Positions 8,156-17,946 of a stretch of DNA of 64,000 nucleotides are shown here, one piece after another (within the stretch, counting starts at the first letter, position 1; every line of letters starts with the position of its first letter). Made by a program: the position numbers and the translations under genes. Under the pieces are notes generated by a model, which saw only the letters and a program-made list of their open reading frames with translations, was not told the DNA's origin and searched no databases. Source of the DNA: Bacteroidota bacterium (GTDB lineage Bacteria > Bacteroidota > Bacteroidia > Chitinophagales > LD1); assembly GCA_018267385.1 (NCBI GenBank), contig JAFDYN010000011.1, positions 1 through 64,000 on the forward strand, given 5' to 3'.

Positions 8156-10543
8156 ATGAGAAAAAACTACCTCCCCGAGTTATCGTTTGTTATTCTGCTG
8201 CTGCTTTCGCTGGGACTGCACGCCCAGGTCAATGAAGTACTCAAGGCCAGCCAGTTTGGCGGCGTGTCAAACATCAGCTACAATCCTGCCATAGCAGACA
8301 ACCGTTTTCTCGTAGATATCAACCTGATCTCTATGGGCTTTGGCATGGAGAATAACTACATCGGTCTGAGCCCCAAGCCGATCACTAATCATGACTTATT
8401 CAATGATGCCAACTTCCAGAATGATTACCTACGTGAGCGGCTGAATGGCAACGCCAAGCGTGCCTTTGTAGGCATGCAGGTGCAGGGGCCGCTGTCATTC
8501 ATGTTTTCATTTGGCAAGAATCATAATAATAAAAATGCGATAGGCGTATCGTGGAATGTCAATAGCCTCGTCAACGTAGATGGTGTGGGTGAAACATTTG
8601 CGCGTAGCGCATACTTCGGCCTCGGCAGCAAGGCAGATTCTATTACACACTTCGACTACACCCACCTCAATAACCAGAACCTCGGTATCCGTACTCTGGC
8701 CTGGGCAGACTTTGGTGTGACCTACTCCCGTGTAGTGCTGGACAGAGGTCCCCATATGCTGAAGGCGGGTGTGACCGGCAAAGTAATAGTGGGTATAGCA
8801 GGTGGCTACGCCTACTCAAAAAATATCGACTATAAGATAAGCGGATATGATACAATAGACATCTATAAGTCGGACATCAGCTATGGACATAGTGATCTTA
8901 TATCTAATAACAACCCCGGTATCAATGATGTGCTCAATGGCCTGAGCAAACCATCTTTTGCTGCAGACCTCGGTCTCATATATGAGTGGCGCCCCGACAA
9001 GGAGAAGTACCAATATGAGATGGACTGCAAGAAGTGGTGGGAGAATGGAAAGAACAAATACAAACTGGCAGCAGGCTTCTCGGTCATAGATATAGGCCGT
9101 GTCAAATTTGCCAAGCCGGGCAATGTGCGCAGCTACTACGCCGATATACAAGGATATGATATAGCCAACTCAGGTATCACTGACGTGCATACCTTTGACA
9201 GTGTCTTTCATAGCTTGCCTTCAAACTTCAAGGCTGATAGCAAGAATTACTTTAACATATGGCTGCCTACACGTTTTAACCTCTTCCTCGACTGGGAGAT
9301 CTACAAAGGCCTCGGCCTGAACCTGAATGGTACGATCTCTCCGGTGTTTGCCAAGGATGGCAACCAGGTGCATTATCCCAACTCGATCATGCTCACACCG
9401 CGCTATGACTGGAAGTGGATAGGTGTATACATACCGATGACGTATAATGATTATGGCAACTTCGGTGCGGGTGTCGGCCTGCGTGCTGGTCCGCTCTTCG
9501 TCTCATCGTCCAATCTGATCACCGTATTTGCCGGCAAAGCCACTTATGCTATGAATATCCAGGCCGGCCTCAAGATCACCATACCTAACCTGAAACAAAG
9601 GGATAGGGATAAAGATGGCGTGTCAAACAGGAAGGATAAGTGCAAGAAAGAAAAAGGCACCTGTGCTACACAAGGCTGCCCTGACATGGATGGCGATAGT
9701 ATAGTAGACAGCGAGGACAAATGCCCTACTGTACCAGGACCGAGAGAGACAATGGGCTGCCCTGACCGTGATAAGGATGGCGTGTATGATATGAATGACT
9801 CCTGCCCTGATGTGGCCGGCCCGGTAGAGCTGAGCGGCTGCCCTGATACAGATGGCGACGGCATATGGGATAAATATGATGAATGCCCTACTGAGAAAGG
9901 CACGAAGGAGCTGCACGGCTGTCCTGATCGCGATGGTGATGGTGTGGCAGATAAAGATGATGCCTGTCCTGATGTGCCGGGAGATAAGGCGCACAAGGGC
10001 TGCCCTGATACCGACGGCGATGGCCTCTATGACAATGAAGACGGCTGCCCTCGCGTGAAAGGACCTGTAGAGAATAAGGGTTGCCCATGGCCGGATACAG
10101 ATGGCGACGGAATATTGGATAAGGATGACGCTTGTCCGGCTGTCTTTGGCGTAGCTGAGAATAAAGGCTGCCCTGCGCTGAGCAAGAAAGAACTGGAGAC
10201 AGTGAAGTATGCCTTTGATAATCTCGAGTTTGAGACAGGCAAAGATGTGATACGGACCAAGTCTTATGTATCACTCAATGCACTGGCCAAACTACTCATA
10301 GACAAGCCGAACTATGGCCTGAAGATAGAAGGCCACACAGATAATGTAGGCAAGGCCGAGATGAACATGGAGCTCTCACTCAAGCGCGCCGAGGCAGTCA
10401 AGAAGTACCTCGTAGCAAAGAATGTGGAAGCCTCTAAGCTCGAGACATATGGCTACGGCCTGACTCGTCCTATAGCAGACAATAGTACTGCTGCAGGCCG
10501 CCAGAAGAACCGCCGCGTAGAGATGACCATTACATTCAAGTAA
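8156..10543 (+). CDS. outer-membrane OmpA-family protein with DUF5723 and TSP3 repeats
   Basis: A 795-aa envelope protein in three parts. After the signal peptide (LSFVILLLLSLGLHAQ), residues about 25-480 are a DUF5723-like beta-rich, probably outer-membrane barrel domain. Residues about 480-680 hold eight or so thrombospondin type 3 repeats (D-x-D-x-DG-x-x-D-x-x-D-x-C-P), which bind calcium and make a stiff linker; each is followed by a Gly-Cys-Pro. Residues about 685-795 form an OmpA C-terminal peptidoglycan-binding domain with EGHTDNVGKAEMNMELSLKR and a terminal RQKNRRVEMTI. It probably ties the outer membrane to the cell wall. A hairpin terminator follows. The exact role of the DUF5723 part is unknown. 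Confidence 0.88.
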   Translation: MRKNYLPELSFVILLLLSLGLHAQVNEVLKASQFGGVSNISYNPAIADNRFLVDINLISMGFGMENNYIGLSPKPITNHDLFNDANFQNDYLRERLNGNAKRAFVGMQVQGPLSFMFSFGKNHNNKNAIGVSWNVNSLVNVDGVGETFARSAYFGLGSKADSITHFDYTHLNNQNLGIRTLAWADFGVTYSRVVLDRGPHMLKAGVTGKVIVGIAGGYAYSKNIDYKISGYDTIDIYKSDISYGHSDLISNNNPGINDVLNGLSKPSFAADLGLIYEWRPDKEKYQYEMDCKKWWENGKNKYKLAAGFSVIDIGRVKFAKPGNVRSYYADIQGYDIANSGITDVHTFDSVFHSLPSNFKADSKNYFNIWLPTRFNLFLDWEIYKGLGLNLNGTISPVFAKDGNQVHYPNSIMLTPRYDWKWIGVYIPMTYNDYGNFGAGVGLRAGPLFVSSSNLITVFAGKATYAMNIQAGLKITIPNLKQRDRDKDGVSNRKDKCKKEKGTCATQGCPDMDGDSIVDSEDKCPTVPGPRETMGCPDRDKDGVYDMNDSCPDVAGPVELSGCPDTDGDGIWDKYDECPTEKGTKELHGCPDRDGDGVADKDDACPDVPGDKAHKGCPDTDGDGLYDNEDGCPRVKGPVENKGCPWPDTDGDGILDKDDACPAVFGVAENKGCPALSKKELETVKYAFDNLEFETGKDVIRTKSYVSLNALAKLLIDKPNYGLKIEGHTDNVGKAEMNMELSLKRAEAVKKYLVAKNVEASKLETYGYGLTRPIADNSTAAGRQKNRRVEMTITFK

Positions 10544-10608: not shown

Positions 10609-12033
10609 TCACTTAGGAGCTATCTCATAGAGCTTTTCCAATATCCATGTGCGGTCAGCCGTATTGCCGGTGGCTTCTATCTCTTTGCGCAGCGCAGCTA
10701 CCTTTGCTTTATCCTTTACATCTATACGGTAGAGCTTCATCACAAAGCGGGCAAAATTGCCATAGTTGGTTTTGTTTTGCTCTGAGATCAGTTTCTTGCG
10801 GTCCAGCAGCATACGAAAGCTCTCACGCAGGGAGAGAAGGGAAGGATATGCATCCAGCTCATAGTATGTCTTCATCAGCGTGGTCTTGGAGTCCAGCTGG
10901 TAGAATACATCACTGTACTCCACATCCTGCAATAGCTGTAATACTTTGTCATACTCCCGTACTGCAAAGTGATAGCGTGCCATATTGAATGTATATGCAT
11001 TGCCGGCTTCTTCTTTTGATAGCCGGTTCTTATAGTTCTCTATAAAGGTGCGCGCCCACTTGTGATCTTTGCTCCGGATCGCTATGGTCACTATATTCTT
11101 GTAGTCCCACGGAGAGAGTACGCCATCCTGATAGATCAGCTCGTGATCGAGTGCGTATTGGTAGAGCGCGAGTATCTCATGCAGGTAGCCCAGGTGGCCT
11201 TTGTTGATACGCCGGATGGCATAGTTTAGCGCAAAGGCAAAAACCTCCCTGCGCGTATAGTCTGCCATGAGCGGGAGATAGCTAAAGAAGCATTCTTTGA
11301 GGGCTGTGAAATGTGCCTCTTCCTCAGGCGCTATCATAGTGAGTATGGCGCGGTAGTATGCATCTGCTACAGGTATATTGGCAGGGGGGTGTCGCTCCAG
11401 ATAGCTCATGATCTCTGTGAGCAGGGCTGTGTCCTCCTGCATACTCAGAAAGTGGCGGTAGTGAAGGATAGATGCACAATAACGGAGTTTATTGACCAGG
11501 TAGAAGTGGTCGAGGCTGGACATTGCCTCCGTGAGGTGCTTCTCCGGACCGCGCTCACCGCGGTTTTCTATATGGGTATAGTACTGCTCATCCAGGCGGA
11601 AGGTATGAAGGTAGTACTCATTATCGCGCAGAGGCTGCTGCTCGAGTTGCTTGCGGGCATGCAGGTATGGCTCGGTGAAATGCTTGTCAAGCTTCATGCC
11701 TGTATAAAGATCCAGCAGATGGTAGCTGCTGTCATGCGGTTGTTTCTTCAGCCGCTCAGTGACGAGGAATGACTCCAGCTTTTTTAACAGGTCTGACAGT
11801 AGCCGGGCGAAATATTGGTTAGTAAACTGGCGTCCGGGCTGAACCTTTTTCCATATTTTGTATTTGTCCGGCGGAGCCGTTTGTCCAGCTGTGTAGAAAG
11901 GCCGAAGCGCTTCATATAGTTTAATAAGCTTCTGATCCTGATTGTGGTAGGGTGATATGAGAAAGGTGTGAAACCTGTTTAACTCGTAGGCGCTCAGGCG
12001 CGCCAGTAGTAGGTGAAGCTTTGTATCGGTCAT
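10609..12033 (-). CDS. helical cytoplasmic protein, paralogue 1 of a duplicated unit
   Basis: A 474-aa protein with no signal peptide or membrane segment, largely alpha-helical and rich in Leu, Tyr and Lys. The family is not recognised. It aligns over its full length with the protein at 14447-15865. Shared blocks include KLHLLL.R.SAYELNR near the N-terminus, LSPWDYKNI in the middle, DSKTTLMKTYYEL, ISEQN..NYGNFAR, and the terminal GNTADRTWILEKL. The repeated helix pairs resemble a solenoid, but no TPR consensus is clear. It is divergently transcribed from the T9SS surface protein at 12210, and the same arrangement recurs with its paralogue. I infer a role linked to that surface protein, such as regulation or a scaffold, without direct evidence. 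Confidence 0.8.
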   Translation of the reverse strand: MTDTKLHLLLARLSAYELNRFHTFLISPYHNQDQKLIKLYEALRPFYTAGQTAPPDKYKIWKKVQPGRQFTNQYFARLLSDLLKKLESFLVTERLKKQPHDSSYHLLDLYTGMKLDKHFTEPYLHARKQLEQQPLRDNEYYLHTFRLDEQYYTHIENRGERGPEKHLTEAMSSLDHFYLVNKLRYCASILHYRHFLSMQEDTALLTEIMSYLERHPPANIPVADAYYRAILTMIAPEEEAHFTALKECFFSYLPLMADYTRREVFAFALNYAIRRINKGHLGYLHEILALYQYALDHELIYQDGVLSPWDYKNIVTIAIRSKDHKWARTFIENYKNRLSKEEAGNAYTFNMARYHFAVREYDKVLQLLQDVEYSDVFYQLDSKTTLMKTYYELDAYPSLLSLRESFRMLLDRKKLISEQNKTNYGNFARFVMKLYRIDVKDKAKVAALRKEIEATGNTADRTWILEKLYEIAPK

Positions 12034-12209
12034 AAAAAGTGATCCGTATAAATATATCTTGAAATGTTATTTTAAAGAGGTAAAATAATCAATTTATATG
12101 TAAGTGGTCCGTATAATCCCATATAAATGTGCTTTTTTAGGTGAGTGCAATGAAGTCTTTTTGTAACGAGCTATAGTAGCTCATTTGCAAAACAGATAAA
12201 CCCAATGAA
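12034..12209. promoter_or_regulatory. divergent AT-rich promoter region, copy 1
   Basis: A 176-bp AT-rich spacer between the divergent pair. It shares words with the spacer of the second unit (15866-16059): ccgTATAAAT against cggTATAAAT near the minus-strand gene, and TATAAATGT ... CTTTTTTA on the other side. It ends in a perfect hairpin GAGCTA-tag-TAGCTC (12168-12182). The shared words suggest common control of both units. Confidence 0.4.
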
Positions 12210-14372
12210 ATGATAGTATATCTGAAAAACAGCCTGCGCAGGCATCTGATACTGGTCAGCATGCTGTGTATGAGTGTAGCCTGCTACGCCCAGTGCTCAA
12301 TGGTGCTCACAGATGCAGTGACACCGGCCTGCGGTAGCCTGCACTCCGGCACGGTGACGATACATGCTAGCAATGCGGCTGCGCCATATCAGTATCGGCT
12401 GGGAGCAGGTGGTAGCTGGCAGACAGATTCCTTGTTCACCGGTCTGGGTGCGGGTAGCGCTACAGTGTACGTCATGGAGGCGGGCGGCTGCGTGGACTCT
12501 ATCGTAGTAGTGATCGGTAGTGCCGGTACGCCTTTCACACCGGCTATCACAGCCACAGCGTGGTCTGCTACGTTCTGTAATGGAGTGGGCATGGTAGATA
12601 CTTTCTGGGCATCGGGCAGTAGTGCAGTGCTTACTTATCAGTGGTATCATAATGGTGCGCCTATCTCAGGTGCTACAGCTGCTACATATACTACTACCGT
12701 GCTCAATGACCACGATAGCCTGTGGGTGGTGGGCTATACGTCATCTCCATGTGCTACGGTAGACTCTGCAGTCAGCAATACTATCCATATCACGGCGTAT
12801 ACAGGGGCCATCCCATCCGTCACTGCTACTGCGACATCCTTGTCATACTGTGCAGGAGGGAGCTTTGTAGATACCTTTTGGGCGAGTAGCTCCGGGAGCG
12901 CGGTGCTGACATATCACTGGTATCGCAATGGGGCGGCGGTGACGGGAGCTACAGGCTCATCCTGGAGTACAGCCACGCTCAGTGATCATGACAGCGTATG
13001 GGTAGTAGCTCAGGGCATAGGCCCCTGTGCCGCGCCCGTCAGCAGCAATATTCTTCATATCAGCATTTTTCCGGACACGGTGCCTGCCATTTCTATTACT
13101 GCTGCATCTTTGTCGTTTTGCGCAGGATCAGGCTTTGTGGATACATTCTGGGCCGGAGGTGGCACCAGTGCGGTACTCACCTATCAGTGGTATAGAAATG
13201 ATACTGCAGTATCAGGAGCCACCGGGACCTCATGGGCTACATCGTCGCTGGCTGACCACGATAGCATATGGGTAGTAGCGTACGGTGCTACGGGCTGTAC
13301 GGCAGGAGATTCATCCGTCAGCACGCGCGTCACTATATCGCTCATCAGCTGCGCAGATACGGTGTGGCCGGGAGATGCGGATGCTAATCACATAGCTGAT
13401 AATAACGACCTGCTACCGGTAGGACTGGCCTATGGCGCTACCGGCCCGGTACGTACAGTGCAGGGTATCGTTTGGCAGGGCGATAGTGCGGACAGGTGGA
13501 GTCAGTATTTCTCTATCTACGCACCTACGGTCAACTATGTACATGCTGACTGCAATGGAGACGGCGTGGTCAATGGTGATGACACCCTGGCTATAGTGAC
13601 CAATTTTGGCCTGACACACCCCAAAACAAATGGATATGGTACGCCGCGCAGCGGCGCGCATAGCATGCATCTGGAGTTTTCGCGGGATACGGTGTACAAT
13701 GGGCAGAGCCTGGTAGCTGCCGTCATACTGGGCGATGCGGCGATACCTTTTGCAAATATTTATGGCATCGCCTTTACGTATAACTATGATCCGCTGGTAT
13801 ACGATACCAATAGTATCTCTTTTGAATATATCAACTCGTGGCTGGGGGACTATACCAATAGTATTAATATCAGCAAGACCTTCCCGGCGCCGGGTGTCAT
13901 CAAAACCGCTATCACGGGCATAGATCACCTGGATAGAAATGGATGGGGCGCCATAGCCAGATTCAGAGGTACGATCACGACGGATAATATCAATGGCATA
14001 AGGCGGTACGTCAATACAGACTATATCACAGACATCACTGCTGTAGACATGAAAGGTGATACCATAGAGGTCAATACCTGCGTGGACTCAAACCTGATCA
14101 TACAATGGGCTACCGGTATCCATGATATCACAGAAGGCGACCATATCGAGATCTATCCTAATCCGGCTATAAACTACATACAGGTGAGCTCTGAGCATCT
14201 GATGACGCAGGTGCAGCTCTATGATCCGCTGGGAGGACTCGTGATGGATAATCATGCAGGTGGTGAGACATCGCTGTCATTTGACATCTCTGGTCTGGCC
14301 AGTGGTATCTATATAGTGCGCATATCTACCGTAAATGGAAGTACTATAAGAAAGGTCGCGATAAAGCACTAA
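12210..14372 (+). CDS. large T9SS surface protein with Ig-like repeats and dockerin-like loops
   Basis: A 720-aa exported protein. A signal peptide (VSMLCMSVACYAQ) is followed by a SprB-like/Ig-like start and three repeats of about 90 aa, each with FVDTFWASG, LTYQWYRNG, GAT..SW and DHDS.WVV; these resemble Ig-like or PKD adhesion modules. Next come two Ca-binding, dockerin-like loops (GDADANHIADNNDLL and DCNGDGVVNGDDT) and a cohesin/beta-sandwich-like domain with NIYGIAFTYNYDPL. Last is a type A sorting domain (IEIYPNPAINYIQVSS, DISGLASGIYIVRIST). The part from the first loop to the end is homologous to the protein at 16060-17946. It is probably an adhesin or polymer-binding surface protein. 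It is divergent from the helical protein gene at 10609-12033. Confidence 0.82.
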   Translation: MIVYLKNSLRRHLILVSMLCMSVACYAQCSMVLTDAVTPACGSLHSGTVTIHASNAAAPYQYRLGAGGSWQTDSLFTGLGAGSATVYVMEAGGCVDSIVVVIGSAGTPFTPAITATAWSATFCNGVGMVDTFWASGSSAVLTYQWYHNGAPISGATAATYTTTVLNDHDSLWVVGYTSSPCATVDSAVSNTIHITAYTGAIPSVTATATSLSYCAGGSFVDTFWASSSGSAVLTYHWYRNGAAVTGATGSSWSTATLSDHDSVWVVAQGIGPCAAPVSSNILHISIFPDTVPAISITAASLSFCAGSGFVDTFWAGGGTSAVLTYQWYRNDTAVSGATGTSWATSSLADHDSIWVVAYGATGCTAGDSSVSTRVTISLISCADTVWPGDADANHIADNNDLLPVGLAYGATGPVRTVQGIVWQGDSADRWSQYFSIYAPTVNYVHADCNGDGVVNGDDTLAIVTNFGLTHPKTNGYGTPRSGAHSMHLEFSRDTVYNGQSLVAAVILGDAAIPFANIYGIAFTYNYDPLVYDTNSISFEYINSWLGDYTNSINISKTFPAPGVIKTAITGIDHLDRNGWGAIARFRGTITTDNINGIRRYVNTDYITDITAVDMKGDTIEVNTCVDSNLIIQWATGIHDITEGDHIEIYPNPAINYIQVSSEHLMTQVQLYDPLGGLVMDNHAGGETSLSFDISGLASGIYIVRISTVNGSTIRKVAIKH

Positions 14373-14401
14373 ATACCATAAGGTAAACTACCATGAAAGC
14401 G

Positions 14402-14425
14402 TGGCGAGGCTTCGGCCTCGCCTAC
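14402..14425. terminator. hairpin between converging genes
   Basis: A perfect 8-bp stem GGCGAGGC-TTCG-GCCTCGCC (14403-14422) with a stable UUCG loop lies between the T9SS gene and the converging 472-aa gene. There is no real T-run on the plus strand, so termination is weaker than at the equivalent place in unit 1. Confidence 0.55.
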
Positions 14426-14446
14426 ATTCGGGTGCCGAGAGAAGCT

Positions 14447-15865
14447 TCATCCCAATTCATGGAGCTTCTCCAGTATCCATGTGCGGTCGGCCGTATTGCC
14501 TGTCTCCTCTATCTCTTTGCGCAGCGCAGCCAACTTCGCTTTGTCCCTTACATCTATACGGTAGAGCTTCATCACAAGGCGGGCAAAATTGCCATAGTTA
14601 GCCCGGTTTTGCTCAGAGATGAGCTTCTTTCTGCGGAGCAGGATGCGGAAGCTCTCCTTGAGTGACTGCAATGGCTGGTACTCGCCCAGCTCGTAATAGG
14701 TCTTCATGAGCGTGGTCTTAGAGTCTAGCAGATAGAAGATATCAGTGTACTCTACACCTTGCAGCAGGTCGAGTACCCTATCATATTGCTTCATAGCAAA
14801 GTGGTAGCGCGCCTGATTAAAAGTGTAGGCATTCTTCTGCTCCGGTTTGGCCAGCTTGTATTTATATGTTTCCAGGAAAGATGCCGTCCATTTGTACTCC
14901 TTATTGCGCAGGGCGATGGTCGTTATGTTTTTATAGTCCCAGGGCGAGAGGATACCCTTATCATATAGCAGCTCGTGGTCCAGGGCATATTTGTATAAAC
15001 TGAAGATCTCGCTTTGGTAGCTGGTGTGGCCCGTATTTATCTTTCTGATGCAGTAGTTGAGCGCGTGATCTACTGCATCCAGTTTGGTAGAGATGGCCAG
15101 TGCAGCGCTATCGCTCAGCAGTAGCTTCTTCAGGTCTCTGAAGTGTCTCTCCTCCTCGGGCTCTGTGAGGGATAGTATGATGTAGTGATAGGCGGCTATG
15201 GCCGGATCACGGGTAGGAGGATGAGCGCGCAGCCATATGAGTATCTCCCCCAGCAGGGCAGAGTCCTGCCGCACACTCAGAAACTGGCCGTAGTGCAGCG
15301 ATGCAGCAGTATAGCGTAGCTTATTGATCAGGTAGAAGCTATCCAGGTGATAGATCGTGTCCTGCAGGTTTTTATTTGTGCCGCGCTGCTTCTTATTCTC
15401 CAGAAAAGCATACTGCTGTACACTGAGCCGGAAGCTCTGGAGGTGGTAGTCGCTGTCACGCTCGGGGTTTCTGGTGAGCTTGTTTTGTGCTGAGAGTGAT
15501 GGCTCAGTAAAATGCTTACTCATACGAAGCTCATTATAGGTTTCCAGTATGAGTATGTTCTCCTCGGTAGGTTTCTGTTTGAGCTTTTCTATGGCTACAA
15601 AGTATTCTACTTTACGGAAAAGATCAGAGAGCAACCGTGCATATTTCAGGTTGGTAAATGGAATGCGGGGATACACCGCCTTCCACAACTTATTCTTTTC
15701 AGGAATACCCGCCAATGGATTTTTGTAGAAGGGAAGGAGGTAGCCATACAACCGGGTCAACACCTCATCGTCATTCAGATAGGGAGACCGCATGAATTTG
15801 TCCAGCCTGTTTAGCTCATATGCGCTAAACCTGCTGAGCAGGAGATGAAGTTTTGAGTCTTGCAC
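14447..15865 (-). CDS. helical cytoplasmic protein, paralogue 2 of a duplicated unit
   Basis: A 472-aa full-length paralogue of the protein at 10609-12033. It starts with GTG (15865), and the alignment of MQDSKLHLLLSRFSAYELNR with the paralogue's ATG-initiated MTDTKLHLLLARLSAYELNR fixes this start. Similarity is highest in the C-terminal third, where blocks such as NYGNFAR.VMKLYRIDV and NTADRTWILEKL are almost unchanged; the middle is more diverged, as if the C-terminal end were functionally critical or had been homogenised by gene conversion. There is no signal peptide and no known domain. It is divergent from the T9SS protein gene at 16060, the same order as in unit 1. Confidence 0.8.
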   Translation of the reverse strand: MQDSKLHLLLSRFSAYELNRLDKFMRSPYLNDDEVLTRLYGYLLPFYKNPLAGIPEKNKLWKAVYPRIPFTNLKYARLLSDLFRKVEYFVAIEKLKQKPTEENILILETYNELRMSKHFTEPSLSAQNKLTRNPERDSDYHLQSFRLSVQQYAFLENKKQRGTNKNLQDTIYHLDSFYLINKLRYTAASLHYGQFLSVRQDSALLGEILIWLRAHPPTRDPAIAAYHYIILSLTEPEEERHFRDLKKLLLSDSAALAISTKLDAVDHALNYCIRKINTGHTSYQSEIFSLYKYALDHELLYDKGILSPWDYKNITTIALRNKEYKWTASFLETYKYKLAKPEQKNAYTFNQARYHFAMKQYDRVLDLLQGVEYTDIFYLLDSKTTLMKTYYELGEYQPLQSLKESFRILLRRKKLISEQNRANYGNFARLVMKLYRIDVRDKAKLAALRKEIEETGNTADRTWILEKLHELG

Positions 15866-16059
15866 GAATATTTTATCGGTATAAATCTACCAGTTATGAA
15901 ATTTATTAAATGAATTTTAGATGCAGTAACTTAAAAGTAAATAAAAAATAATAGGTATAAATGTATTAAAATGTACTTTTTTAAAGGCTAGGAATATGGT
16001 TTTTTTGTGTCGTGATCAGTGGGTCACAGCACAAATCGGTCATCTATAAAAAACATATC
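15866..16059. promoter_or_regulatory. divergent AT-rich promoter region, copy 2
   Basis: A 194-bp very AT-rich spacer of the second divergent pair. It repeats CGGTATAAAT and TATAAATGTA ... CTTTTTTAAA from copy 1 and contains an imperfect inverted repeat GTGATC-agtg-GGTCAC (16012-16027) at the place where copy 1 has its GAGCTA hairpin. Confidence 0.4.
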
Positions 16060-17946
16060 ATGAAAAGGACTACTTACAAAATTACTTTCTTATGCGCTCT
16101 GCTGCTTTCATTTGGGATGCTACGCGCGCAGTATGTGCCCATACCGGACGCAGGTTTCGGAACCTGGCTATCTAATCATGGCTATTCTTCTGCCCTGACG
16201 GGCAATAGTACTGCTGGCTGGCAGCTGGATACGACCAATAGCCTCGTTTTATCTGCTACCGACCTGCAGCAGTCGGGTGACACCACTTATACAAACATTA
16301 CAGGTGTGCAGTATTTTAAAAATCTCCAGAACCTTACGTTTTCTGACAACTACAGGCTGACAGGTGTGCCACCCTATTTCAATGCTACACTGGAACACCT
16401 GGATCTCTCAAACTCAGGCGTGGCCTCACTGCCGGACCTTCCTGCTAATCTGCGGGATCTGCAGATCAATGGTACCCCACTGCAAAACCTGCCACCCCTG
16501 CCCGGCACTATCCAGCGCCTATGGATAGGCTATGGCGCTCCAAAGGTGCTCACAATACTGCCAGACAGCCTGCAGGACTTTGATGCTACCAGCGCCGGCC
16601 TGAGTAGCCTGCCTCCGGTGCCGCAGCATATCCTCTATATGTTTCTGAGCTATAACCAGCTGACCACTATCCCCGCGCTACCCGATACGATGACCACGCT
16701 GATGGTAGACAATAATGCCCTGACCTCACTGACCAATTTGCCACAGTATGCGAGTGATATAGACGTATCTGATAATACCGGCCTGACCTGCCTGCCCCCC
16801 TTCACCCGCATCACCCAGCTTAGATTTAGCAATACAGCTATAGCGTGCGTGCCCAGCTATAATGTGAGCATGGGCACGCCGGTGATCACCAGTGTGCCAC
16901 TTTGCAGTACTTCCAATCCTAATGGCTGTATATTTCAGAGACTGGTGTACCCGGGTGATGCTAATAATGACCGTACCGCCGACAATGCAGACCTGCTGAA
17001 TGTAGGGCTCGGCTATGGTACCAGCGGACCGGCGCGTACAGGCGCAGTATCTACATGGCTGGGGCAGACTGCCACAGACTGGACCGACACTTTTGTCACG
17101 GGCCTCAACTATAAGTTTGGCGACTGCGATGGCAACGGGACCATCAATGCAGATGATACGCTCCCTATTATGATCAACTTTGGTATGACACATGGCAAAA
17201 ATGAAGGCACAGCTCCCTGGCGCAGTGGCGTGCCGGGCCTCAAGGTCTCATTCTCTCAAGATACCGTACAGACAGGAGATACACTCATTACGACCTTCTA
17301 CCTCGGAGACTCAGTTTCGACTGTGAGCAATATTTATGGCCTTGCATTTACCTATCATTATGATCCTTTAGTGAATGATACTTCTTCGGTACGTTTTAGT
17401 TTTCTCTCCTCATGGCTCGGCACGAGCGCCAATAGCATATCGATCTACAAAGACCTGACCGCTGCCGGCCAGATCAAAGCCGCTATCACAGGTATCGATC
17501 ATATCAGCCGGTCGGGCAGTGGTGCTATCGCACAGATGTATTCACGTATTACCTCTGATAATATCAACGGGAAAGACCTGGCCTACTATAATAACCTAGG
17601 CTATATCTCAGATATCACAGCTGTAGATGCCGCCGGTCACGCTATACAGCTCAACGCGGGACAAGACTCTGCCCGCGTAGCATACGAGCCATCAGGCCTG
17701 CATGATCCGGATAATGCCGCTATAATACTCTATCCTAATCCTGCTTCTGGTCATGTATACATCAGATCCGGTGTACAAGTAGAATCTGTAGTGCTCTATG
17801 ACGCGCTAGGGCAGACCATACTAGCTCAAGATGCCAATAGCAAGACCTTGAGCCTCGACCTGAGCGGTATAGCCGCCGGAGCCTATACCGTGGCTATCAG
17901 GACACTGGCGGGTATCAAAAATGTTAGGTTCATTATTACTCAATAG
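16060..17946 (+). CDS. T9SS surface protein with leucine-rich repeats and dockerin-like loops
   Basis: A 628-aa exported protein. ATG 16060 gives the signal peptide MKRTTYKITFLCALLLSFGM ending LRAQ; the earlier in-frame start adds no signal. Residues about 40-285 form bacterial leucine-rich repeats (LEHLDLSNSGVASLPDLP, LRDLQINGTPLQNLPPLP and so on). They are followed by two Ca-binding dockerin-like loops (GDANNDRTADNADLL, DCDGNGTINADDT), the NIYGLAFTYHYDPL beta-sandwich domain and a type A sorting domain (IILYPNPASGHVYI, AAGAYTVAIRT). From the first loop onward it is a homologue of the 12210-14372 protein, but its N-terminal recognition module is unrelated, so the two genes look like a swap of binding heads on a common base. 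It is divergent from the 472-aa paralogue. Confidence 0.83.
   Translation: MKRTTYKITFLCALLLSFGMLRAQYVPIPDAGFGTWLSNHGYSSALTGNSTAGWQLDTTNSLVLSATDLQQSGDTTYTNITGVQYFKNLQNLTFSDNYRLTGVPPYFNATLEHLDLSNSGVASLPDLPANLRDLQINGTPLQNLPPLPGTIQRLWIGYGAPKVLTILPDSLQDFDATSAGLSSLPPVPQHILYMFLSYNQLTTIPALPDTMTTLMVDNNALTSLTNLPQYASDIDVSDNTGLTCLPPFTRITQLRFSNTAIACVPSYNVSMGTPVITSVPLCSTSNPNGCIFQRLVYPGDANNDRTADNADLLNVGLGYGTSGPARTGAVSTWLGQTATDWTDTFVTGLNYKFGDCDGNGTINADDTLPIMINFGMTHGKNEGTAPWRSGVPGLKVSFSQDTVQTGDTLITTFYLGDSVSTVSNIYGLAFTYHYDPLVNDTSSVRFSFLSSWLGTSANSISIYKDLTAAGQIKAAITGIDHISRSGSGAIAQMYSRITSDNINGKDLAYYNNLGYISDITAVDAAGHAIQLNAGQDSARVAYEPSGLHDPDNAAIILYPNPASGHVYIRSGVQVESVVLYDALGQTILAQDANSKTLSLDLSGIAAGAYTVAIRTLAGIKNVRFIITQ

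Follow-up and report, generated by a model that had tools for sequence, protein, structure and literature searches.

How individual cargo genes of the type IX secretion system (T9SS) are switched in Bacteroidota is mostly unknown, and large variable surface proteins are displayed via this system. T9SS-related genes are controlled by PorX/PorY-SigP and by extracytoplasmic function (ECF) sigma factors, and ECF-type promoters have been reported for T9SS components (PMC9723704). In Firmicutes, the peptide-sensing regulators Rap, NprR and PlcR (RRNPP) have a tetratricopeptide repeat (TPR)-type array, and a local regulator gene lies beside the gene of a secreted product. Here we analyse a window of 64,000 nucleotides (contig JAFDYN010000011.1 of a Bacteroidota bacterium, positions 1 to 64,000), in which two units follow one another. 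Each has a gene for a helical cytoplasmic protein on the minus strand and a T9SS gene on the plus strand, with an AT-rich spacer between them. We call the helical family HEL, and the 4.55 Mb genome that holds the window its own genome. The reading that we consider probable is that HEL is a local one-component regulator, dedicated to and activating its divergent T9SS gene, controlling itself as well, and presumably binding DNA. A search of the open-access literature, with subscription papers outside its range, found no description of the HEL-T9SS pair; PMC9950754 was considered as an earlier description and rejected, its genes being unrelated.

Two divergent units and the elements of their spacers

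The original prediction described the same gene order twice in a row, and the coordinates confirm it:

10609-12033, minus strand: HEL1, 474 aa, cytoplasmic, predicted to be all-helical; proposed regulator of the divergent T9SS gene
11743-12033, minus strand: residues 1-97 of HEL1, the basic N-terminal domain, with a predicted helix-turn-helix-like fold
12034-12209: spacer of unit 1, 176 bp
12210-14372, plus strand: T9SS surface protein 1, 720 aa, with signal peptide, Ig_7 repeats, C-module and Por_Secre_tail
13362-14372, plus strand: C-module of surface protein 1, with two dockerin-like calcium-loop sequences, a beta-type region and the T9SS sorting tail
14447-15865, minus strand: HEL2, 472 aa, GTG start, paralogue of HEL1
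15866-16059: spacer of unit 2, 194 bp
16060-17946, plus strand: T9SS surface protein 2, about 628 aa from its ATG, with signal peptide, leucine-rich repeats, C-module and Por_Secre_tail (the open reading frame opens at 16012, ahead of this ATG)
16945-17946, plus strand: C-module of surface protein 2, conserved with that of surface protein 1

As had been proposed, the two helical proteins are full-length paralogues (57% identity over 472 residues, gap-free, in a full-length pairwise comparison) and the surface proteins have a C-terminal part in common. The latter can be aligned only over their last ~328 residues (46% identity, E 4e-85); their N-terminal parts are unlike, with Ig_7 repeats in surface protein 1 and LRR_4 in surface protein 2 (Pfam). 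The sorting domain Por_Secre_tail (PF18962/TIGR04183) scores above the cut-off in both proteins, with 51.0 and 38.8 bits against 27 in Pfam and 43.2 and 39.9 bits against 23 in NCBIfam, and by this domain both are T9SS type A cargo with predicted export to the surface. The dockerin-like calcium-loop sequences of the C-module were recognised by eye; for dockerin type I, no Pfam dockerin family matched either protein at E up to 1.

Each spacer carries two short sites in the same orientation, site A near the HEL start and site B before the T9SS promoter. The TATAAATGT words already noticed in both spacers are real, and are part of a conserved promoter with identical spacing in the two units:

12044-12053, plus strand: site A of unit 1, CCGTATAAAT, adjoining the HEL1 start
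12109-12118, plus strand: site B of unit 1, CCGTATAATC, whose start lies near position -57 of the T9SS promoter
12128-12139, plus strand: box of unit 1, TGTGCTTTTTTA, at about -40 to -29
12160-12163, plus strand: TTTG that ends the predicted -7 box (12156-12163) of unit 1; it lies 32 bp beyond the start of the TGTGCTTTTTTA box
15877-15886, plus strand: site A of unit 2, CGGTATAAAT, adjoining the HEL2 start
15953-15962, plus strand: site B of unit 2, AGGTATAAAT
15972-15983, plus strand: box of unit 2, TGTACTTTTTTA
16004-16007, plus strand: TTTG that ends the predicted -7 box (16000-16007) of unit 2; it lies 32 bp beyond the start of the TGTACTTTTTTA box

The class-wide form of the site is TCCGAYAAA, and the forms in the window are given as CCGTATAAAT and GGTATAAAT. 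The geometry is fixed well beyond the window: the start of site B precedes the TGTRCTTTTTT box by 17 bp at 21 loci, and the box start precedes the TTTG by 32 bp at 23 loci, so that site B starts 49 bp before the TTTG. Because the Bacteroidetes -7 box, TAnnTTTG, sits at -12 to -5 (PMC9723704), site B starts near -57 and the box lies near -40.

In the own genome TGTACTTTTTT occurs five times, four of them in HEL spacers; the fifth site (C25:410894) was dismissed, as it falls within a gene in a region of plasmid- or mobile-element-like character. All five matches of the 52-bp pattern TATA-N12-TGTRYTT-N25-TTTG in that genome fall in HEL-T9SS spacers, and the reversed control has no match in the genome. 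Four other genomes of the genus have 9 of their 11 matches at HEL loci, the single match in a fifth lies before a T9SS gene without HEL, and seven genomes of the family that lack HEL have no match. In a second, class-wide set of loci, CGATAAA is the commonest 7-mer, present on the oriented strand at 13 of 23 loci, at none on the other strand and in 1 of 46 control spacers. The more general CGAYAAA has 29 sites on one strand and 1 on the other, and marks 17 of the 23 loci against 3 of the 46 controls (Fisher 1.4e-8). A whole-genome search for the pair CCGAYAAA-N73-103-CCGAYAAA returned six HEL loci and many matches in coding sequence, and was set aside as unspecific on its own. We also observed, between a unit and mscL, a leftover copy of the composite promoter that no gene follows (L201:4309, G025:C243:19308).

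If one factor served all loci, the sites would be expected to be alike throughout a genome; instead they are matched locus by locus. We compared the likeness of site A to site B within and between loci, for 24 loci under 68% HEL identity. The mean score is 11.74 within and 8.74 between loci (p 5e-5), and 11.23 against 8.74 for the own genome alone (p 0.0016), with no co-variation either in inverted orientation (p 0.40) or in 27 ordinary divergent spacers (p 0.09). The class-wide set shows the same co-variation in direct orientation (p 0.002). On the protein side, residue 76, where the candidate recognition helix begins, is Ala with GTATAW-type sites (18 of 19) and mostly Arg with CGAYAAA sites (25 of 44 Arg proteins have CGAYAAA), a correlation that is only suggestive because it comes largely from one clade.

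The matching bears directly on whether some factor encoded elsewhere, be it an alternative sigma factor or a global regulator, could instead recognise the composite promoter, with HEL co-regulated and unrelated in function. Such a factor would fit the fixed spacing to the core promoter and the promoters that precede T9SS genes without HEL in two members of the genus (G025:C6 and G022:C59). It does not account for sites that differ among the loci of one genome and match the local unit, nor for the absence of the promoter from seven HEL-less family members; the -7 element is of the ordinary TAnnTTTG type (PMC9723704), and of the eight class genomes that carry the promoter in its CGAYAAA version, seven belong to the 45 HEL-bearing genomes (of 197 in all). 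We therefore regard this explanation as rather improbable. The two promoters before T9SS genes with no adjoining HEL (L202:691 and L203:1569, respectively) stand as an observation of their own, and a regulon wider than the pair may exist.

Occurrence of the pair and its separation in one genus

Further copies were found both in the own genome and in relatives, and their pairing exceeds chance. The own genome has eight HEL genes, seven of them divergent from a T9SS gene. Its T9SS C-module is present in exactly six copies, every one divergent from a HEL gene; the seventh HEL gene (C19:22223) diverges from the gene of a T9SS protein of 956 aa that lacks the C-module, while the eighth (C2:130428, G000:C2:130428-131825) has a same-strand neighbour and no T9SS gene. 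A contig scan of genomes yielded 54 related loci, without exception from Bacteroidota. This first survey comprises 61 HEL genes, own and related, of which 4 are cut on their 5' side and 57 have an intact flank. The neighbour is a divergent secreted protein at 46 of these 57 and a same-strand gene at 11; for comparison, a divergent T9SS neighbour is found at only 4 of 330 non-HEL genes of the same loci, an enrichment of approximately 70-fold.

The first scan had been seeded with linked copies, and a second, class-wide survey was therefore made, in which a profile of 50 HEL members was run against 197 genomes sampled evenly across the class Bacteroidia; this profile contains linked copies too, and some bias may remain in its counts. 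HEL is present in 45 of the 197 genomes and in 35 of 119 genera, and at 22 of the 27 loci read the divergent protein has a T9SS sorting domain. The remaining five are a locus cut by the contig end, one whose protein has a tail similar to the type B sorting signal, one with a same-strand T9SS gene and two without a T9SS neighbour. Even the tandem double unit recurs, in a related genome (L036) whose HEL proteins are 81% and 79% identical to those of the window. Helical paralogues that lack a linked T9SS gene, which would point to pairing by chance, are thus not numerous overall despite two unlinked clades, and the suggestion that the duplicated partners act together is supported by the class-wide pairing.

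A natural separation of the partners is found in genus g22, in which no T9SS gene adjoins HEL. Across the 197 genomes the promoter in its CGAYAAA form was matched nine times; eight of these matches are in genomes with HEL, and four coincide with the HEL locus. Two of the others come from g22, one per genome at an equivalent position, immediately ahead of a T9SS gene of ~295 aa, with further CGATAAA copies upstream of it. In one of the two (G083, a single contig) this promoter-bearing gene lies 0.76 Mb from HEL, and the upstream region of the g22 HEL gene retains CGATAAA words directed towards HEL. As judged from the sequence, a separation with sites kept at both genes favours action in trans. 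In G083, the HEL gene (L215:1859-3293; G083:C1:2756373-2757792) has a frame change near residue 353, from sequencing error or decay; the copy in G042 is intact.

Two further observations concern distant relatives of HEL. Proteins of ~500 aa in the own genome (L030:975-2486, L128:2031-3563, L129:1035-2519) have a similar N-terminal pattern, and the gene at L128 is divergent from that of a 616-aa secreted protein.

Predicted fold of HEL and evolution of the unit

The original prediction saw no recognised domain in the helical proteins, and Pfam, NCBIfam and PADLOC indeed hold neither a name nor a model for them. Structure prediction gives an all-helical model with a mean predicted local distance difference test (pLDDT) score of 90.9, in which a basic N-terminal domain is followed by a TPR-like array. 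The array spans residues ~140-474; its PDB sequence matches are TPR consensus proteins only, and its best structural rows are Rap and NprR (Z 12.7-14.5), with other TPR proteins at 11-12. The N-terminal 137 residues, modelled alone, reach a pLDDT of 88.2, and the domain carries a mean net charge of +5 over ~97 residues. Its highest Foldseek probabilities are to the DNA-binding domains of TcpP (0.44), CadC (0.33) and PhoP (0.21), which superpose at 1.8-3.2 A over about 57 residues; the comparison with CadC gives Z 5.3 over 75 residues at 3.5 A. A PDB sequence search with the N-terminal part returned nothing, and the OmpR/PhoB winged-helix profile PF00486 stayed below its gathering score, with 1 of 50 HEL members at E 0.0078. 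The modelled N-terminal fold, weakly resembling these domains, is a lead to DNA binding and not proof of it; we do not claim OmpR/PhoB family membership for HEL, because its match to the profile falls short and its model shows no wing.

The trees of HEL and of the C-module are concordant over 29 units (Pearson 0.85, Spearman 0.92), and 2000 permutations peak at 0.43. At orthologous loci HEL is 72-85% and the C-module 48-64% identical, yet the N-terminal parts of the cargo may have no or only partial detectable similarity; at L031, L049, L050 and L051 they are NHL/Ig, Ig, short and LRR (leucine-rich repeat), respectively. The N-terminal parts differ while HEL and the C-module are conserved, and on this sequence comparison the outward-facing part, including the signal peptide, is therefore what is exchanged, with promoter, HEL and C-module retained. 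The proposal that these are variable surface proteins is in this respect well founded.

Could the pairs simply be ordinary tandem duplicates held by linkage, with functionally unconnected genes? In favour, the window's two units are duplicates lying side by side, and genes that are linked diverge together. But the arrangement recurs in families across the class at the enrichment given above, cargo N-terminal domains are replaced between two conserved parts, and the promoter is conserved in both spacing and sequence. In addition, a partnerless HEL copy (L040:4944-6242) has an internal deletion that leaves 432 aa, which fits a decaying copy. We consider linkage alone very improbable.

The same data invite a different role, in which HEL is a cytoplasmic chaperone or export escort whose TPR groove holds the cargo until Sec export, the promoter co-regulating both genes through another factor. 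The TPR-like array and the one-to-one pairing agree with this, as does the agreement of the HEL and C-module trees despite the N-terminal swaps, which is expected if HEL recognises the C-module. A chaperone does not, however, predict sites that differ between loci of one genome and are matched within each, or a basic N-terminal domain. HEL is also paired with partners that have quite different C-terminal parts (the 956-aa type, a ~270-aa type, and a dockerin-ended type without a sorting tail), and in g22 the genes are far apart yet the sites are kept. The original prediction had left the choice between a dedicated regulator and a chaperone; its first half is favoured, because of the conserved composite promoter and the locus-specific repeated sites, and a chaperone now appears unlikely.

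Next to the tandem units in the window, at 8156-10543, directly adjoins a gene for an OmpA-like protein with a long run of DxDxDG calcium-binding repeats. A similar gene adjoins the HEL gene of L043.

A candidate local regulator and its nearest counterparts

The argument for HEL as a regulator comes from the sites, from the pairing throughout the class and from the trans case; the activating sign is read solely from the promoter geometry. In sequence terms the locus looks like that of a local divergent regulator, with divergent orientation, a shared spacer with conserved sites, few targets and predicted binding to the sites. The basic N-terminal domain of HEL would bind a short asymmetric DNA site, of which the spacer has two copies with the same orientation. 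Site B, near -57 and at a fixed distance to the TGTAYTTTTTT box (~-40) and the -7 box, would have the position of an activator that touches RNA polymerase, and site A, at the start of the HEL gene, a position suited to self-repression. The TPR-like C-terminal part may serve as a sensor, its signal perhaps being a peptide or the cargo. We infer both that HEL is the binding protein and what it does there. Because regulator, sites and cargo would duplicate as a block, with sites that diverge together, a genome could acquire several separately controlled surface proteins.

Several results weigh against the regulator reading. The orthologues of the eighth own HEL gene (in L065-L067, L069 and L073) are likewise unlinked and form one separate clade, and a HEL clade in Saprospiraceae is unlinked as well. 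Given these two clades the HEL-T9SS link is not absolute. Some clades (L032/L052/L053 and several Saprospiraceae loci) are without the box or without any repeat that could be recognised. Among the site statistics, the class-wide inverted-repeat control is also somewhat elevated (p 0.015), and a general direct-repeat test per spacer alone is not significant (Fisher p 0.077), which is why the within- versus between-locus comparison was used. On the structural side, Z values up to ~14 may reflect an arrangement common among helical models, the Foldseek E-values of the N-terminal domain are all >1, and its model has no strands and no beta wing. No DNA-binding sequence family scores above cut-off for HEL, and HHalign gives the N-terminal domain a 2% probability against OmpR-type domains.

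The clade of the eighth own HEL gene (at L033:6402-7829 in the locus numbering) has conserved same-strand neighbours, with a gene for a GNAT-like 385-aa protein upstream, and has no site repeat; it may reveal the role of HEL without a cargo gene.

The chaperone and regulator readings could be combined if HEL senses its cargo. Specifically, the TPR-like groove might recognise the C-module or tail of the unexported cognate cargo, or a fragment released on export, and set cargo transcription accordingly in a feedback loop. We offer this only tentatively, as a doubtful extension of the local regulator. If it were true, each genome would hold a set of surface proteins that are sensed and controlled privately, as a Gram-negative analogue of the Rap-Phr pairs; N-terminal effector domains could then be swapped without upsetting the match between regulator and recognised C-module. 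Apart from the feedback, a HEL family tied class-wide to single T9SS cargo genes through a fixed-geometry promoter and locus-specific sites offers a concrete candidate regulator, a concrete DNA site and a testable specificity between paralogue and site.

Compared with described T9SS type A cargo with dockerin-like repeats, the surface proteins of the window are alike in Por_Secre_tail and in their dockerin-like calcium-loop sequences, and differ in being paired with HEL, in their special promoter and in having no Pfam dockerin match. OmpR/PhoB-type regulators typically have direct-repeat sites ahead of the core promoter, and among the winged-helix members with helical C-terminal parts (CadC, HilA, SARP/AfsR) and their relatives the N-terminal helices of HEL superpose on CadC, PhoP and TcpP; HEL differs in its lack of a Pfam Trans_reg_C match above cut-off and of a predicted beta wing, and in the low HHalign probability. 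The RRNPP regulators are the best structural neighbours of the TPR part and share the placement of a local regulator gene beside that of a secreted product. HEL differs from them in having no recognisable Xre-type helix-turn-helix, in belonging to a different phylum and in its partner, a large T9SS surface protein rather than a short peptide precursor; a peptide signal for HEL is conjectural. Finally, whereas PorX/PorY-SigP and ECF-sigma control act on the whole secretion machinery, HEL is a local candidate regulator, with its own candidate site, for each cargo.

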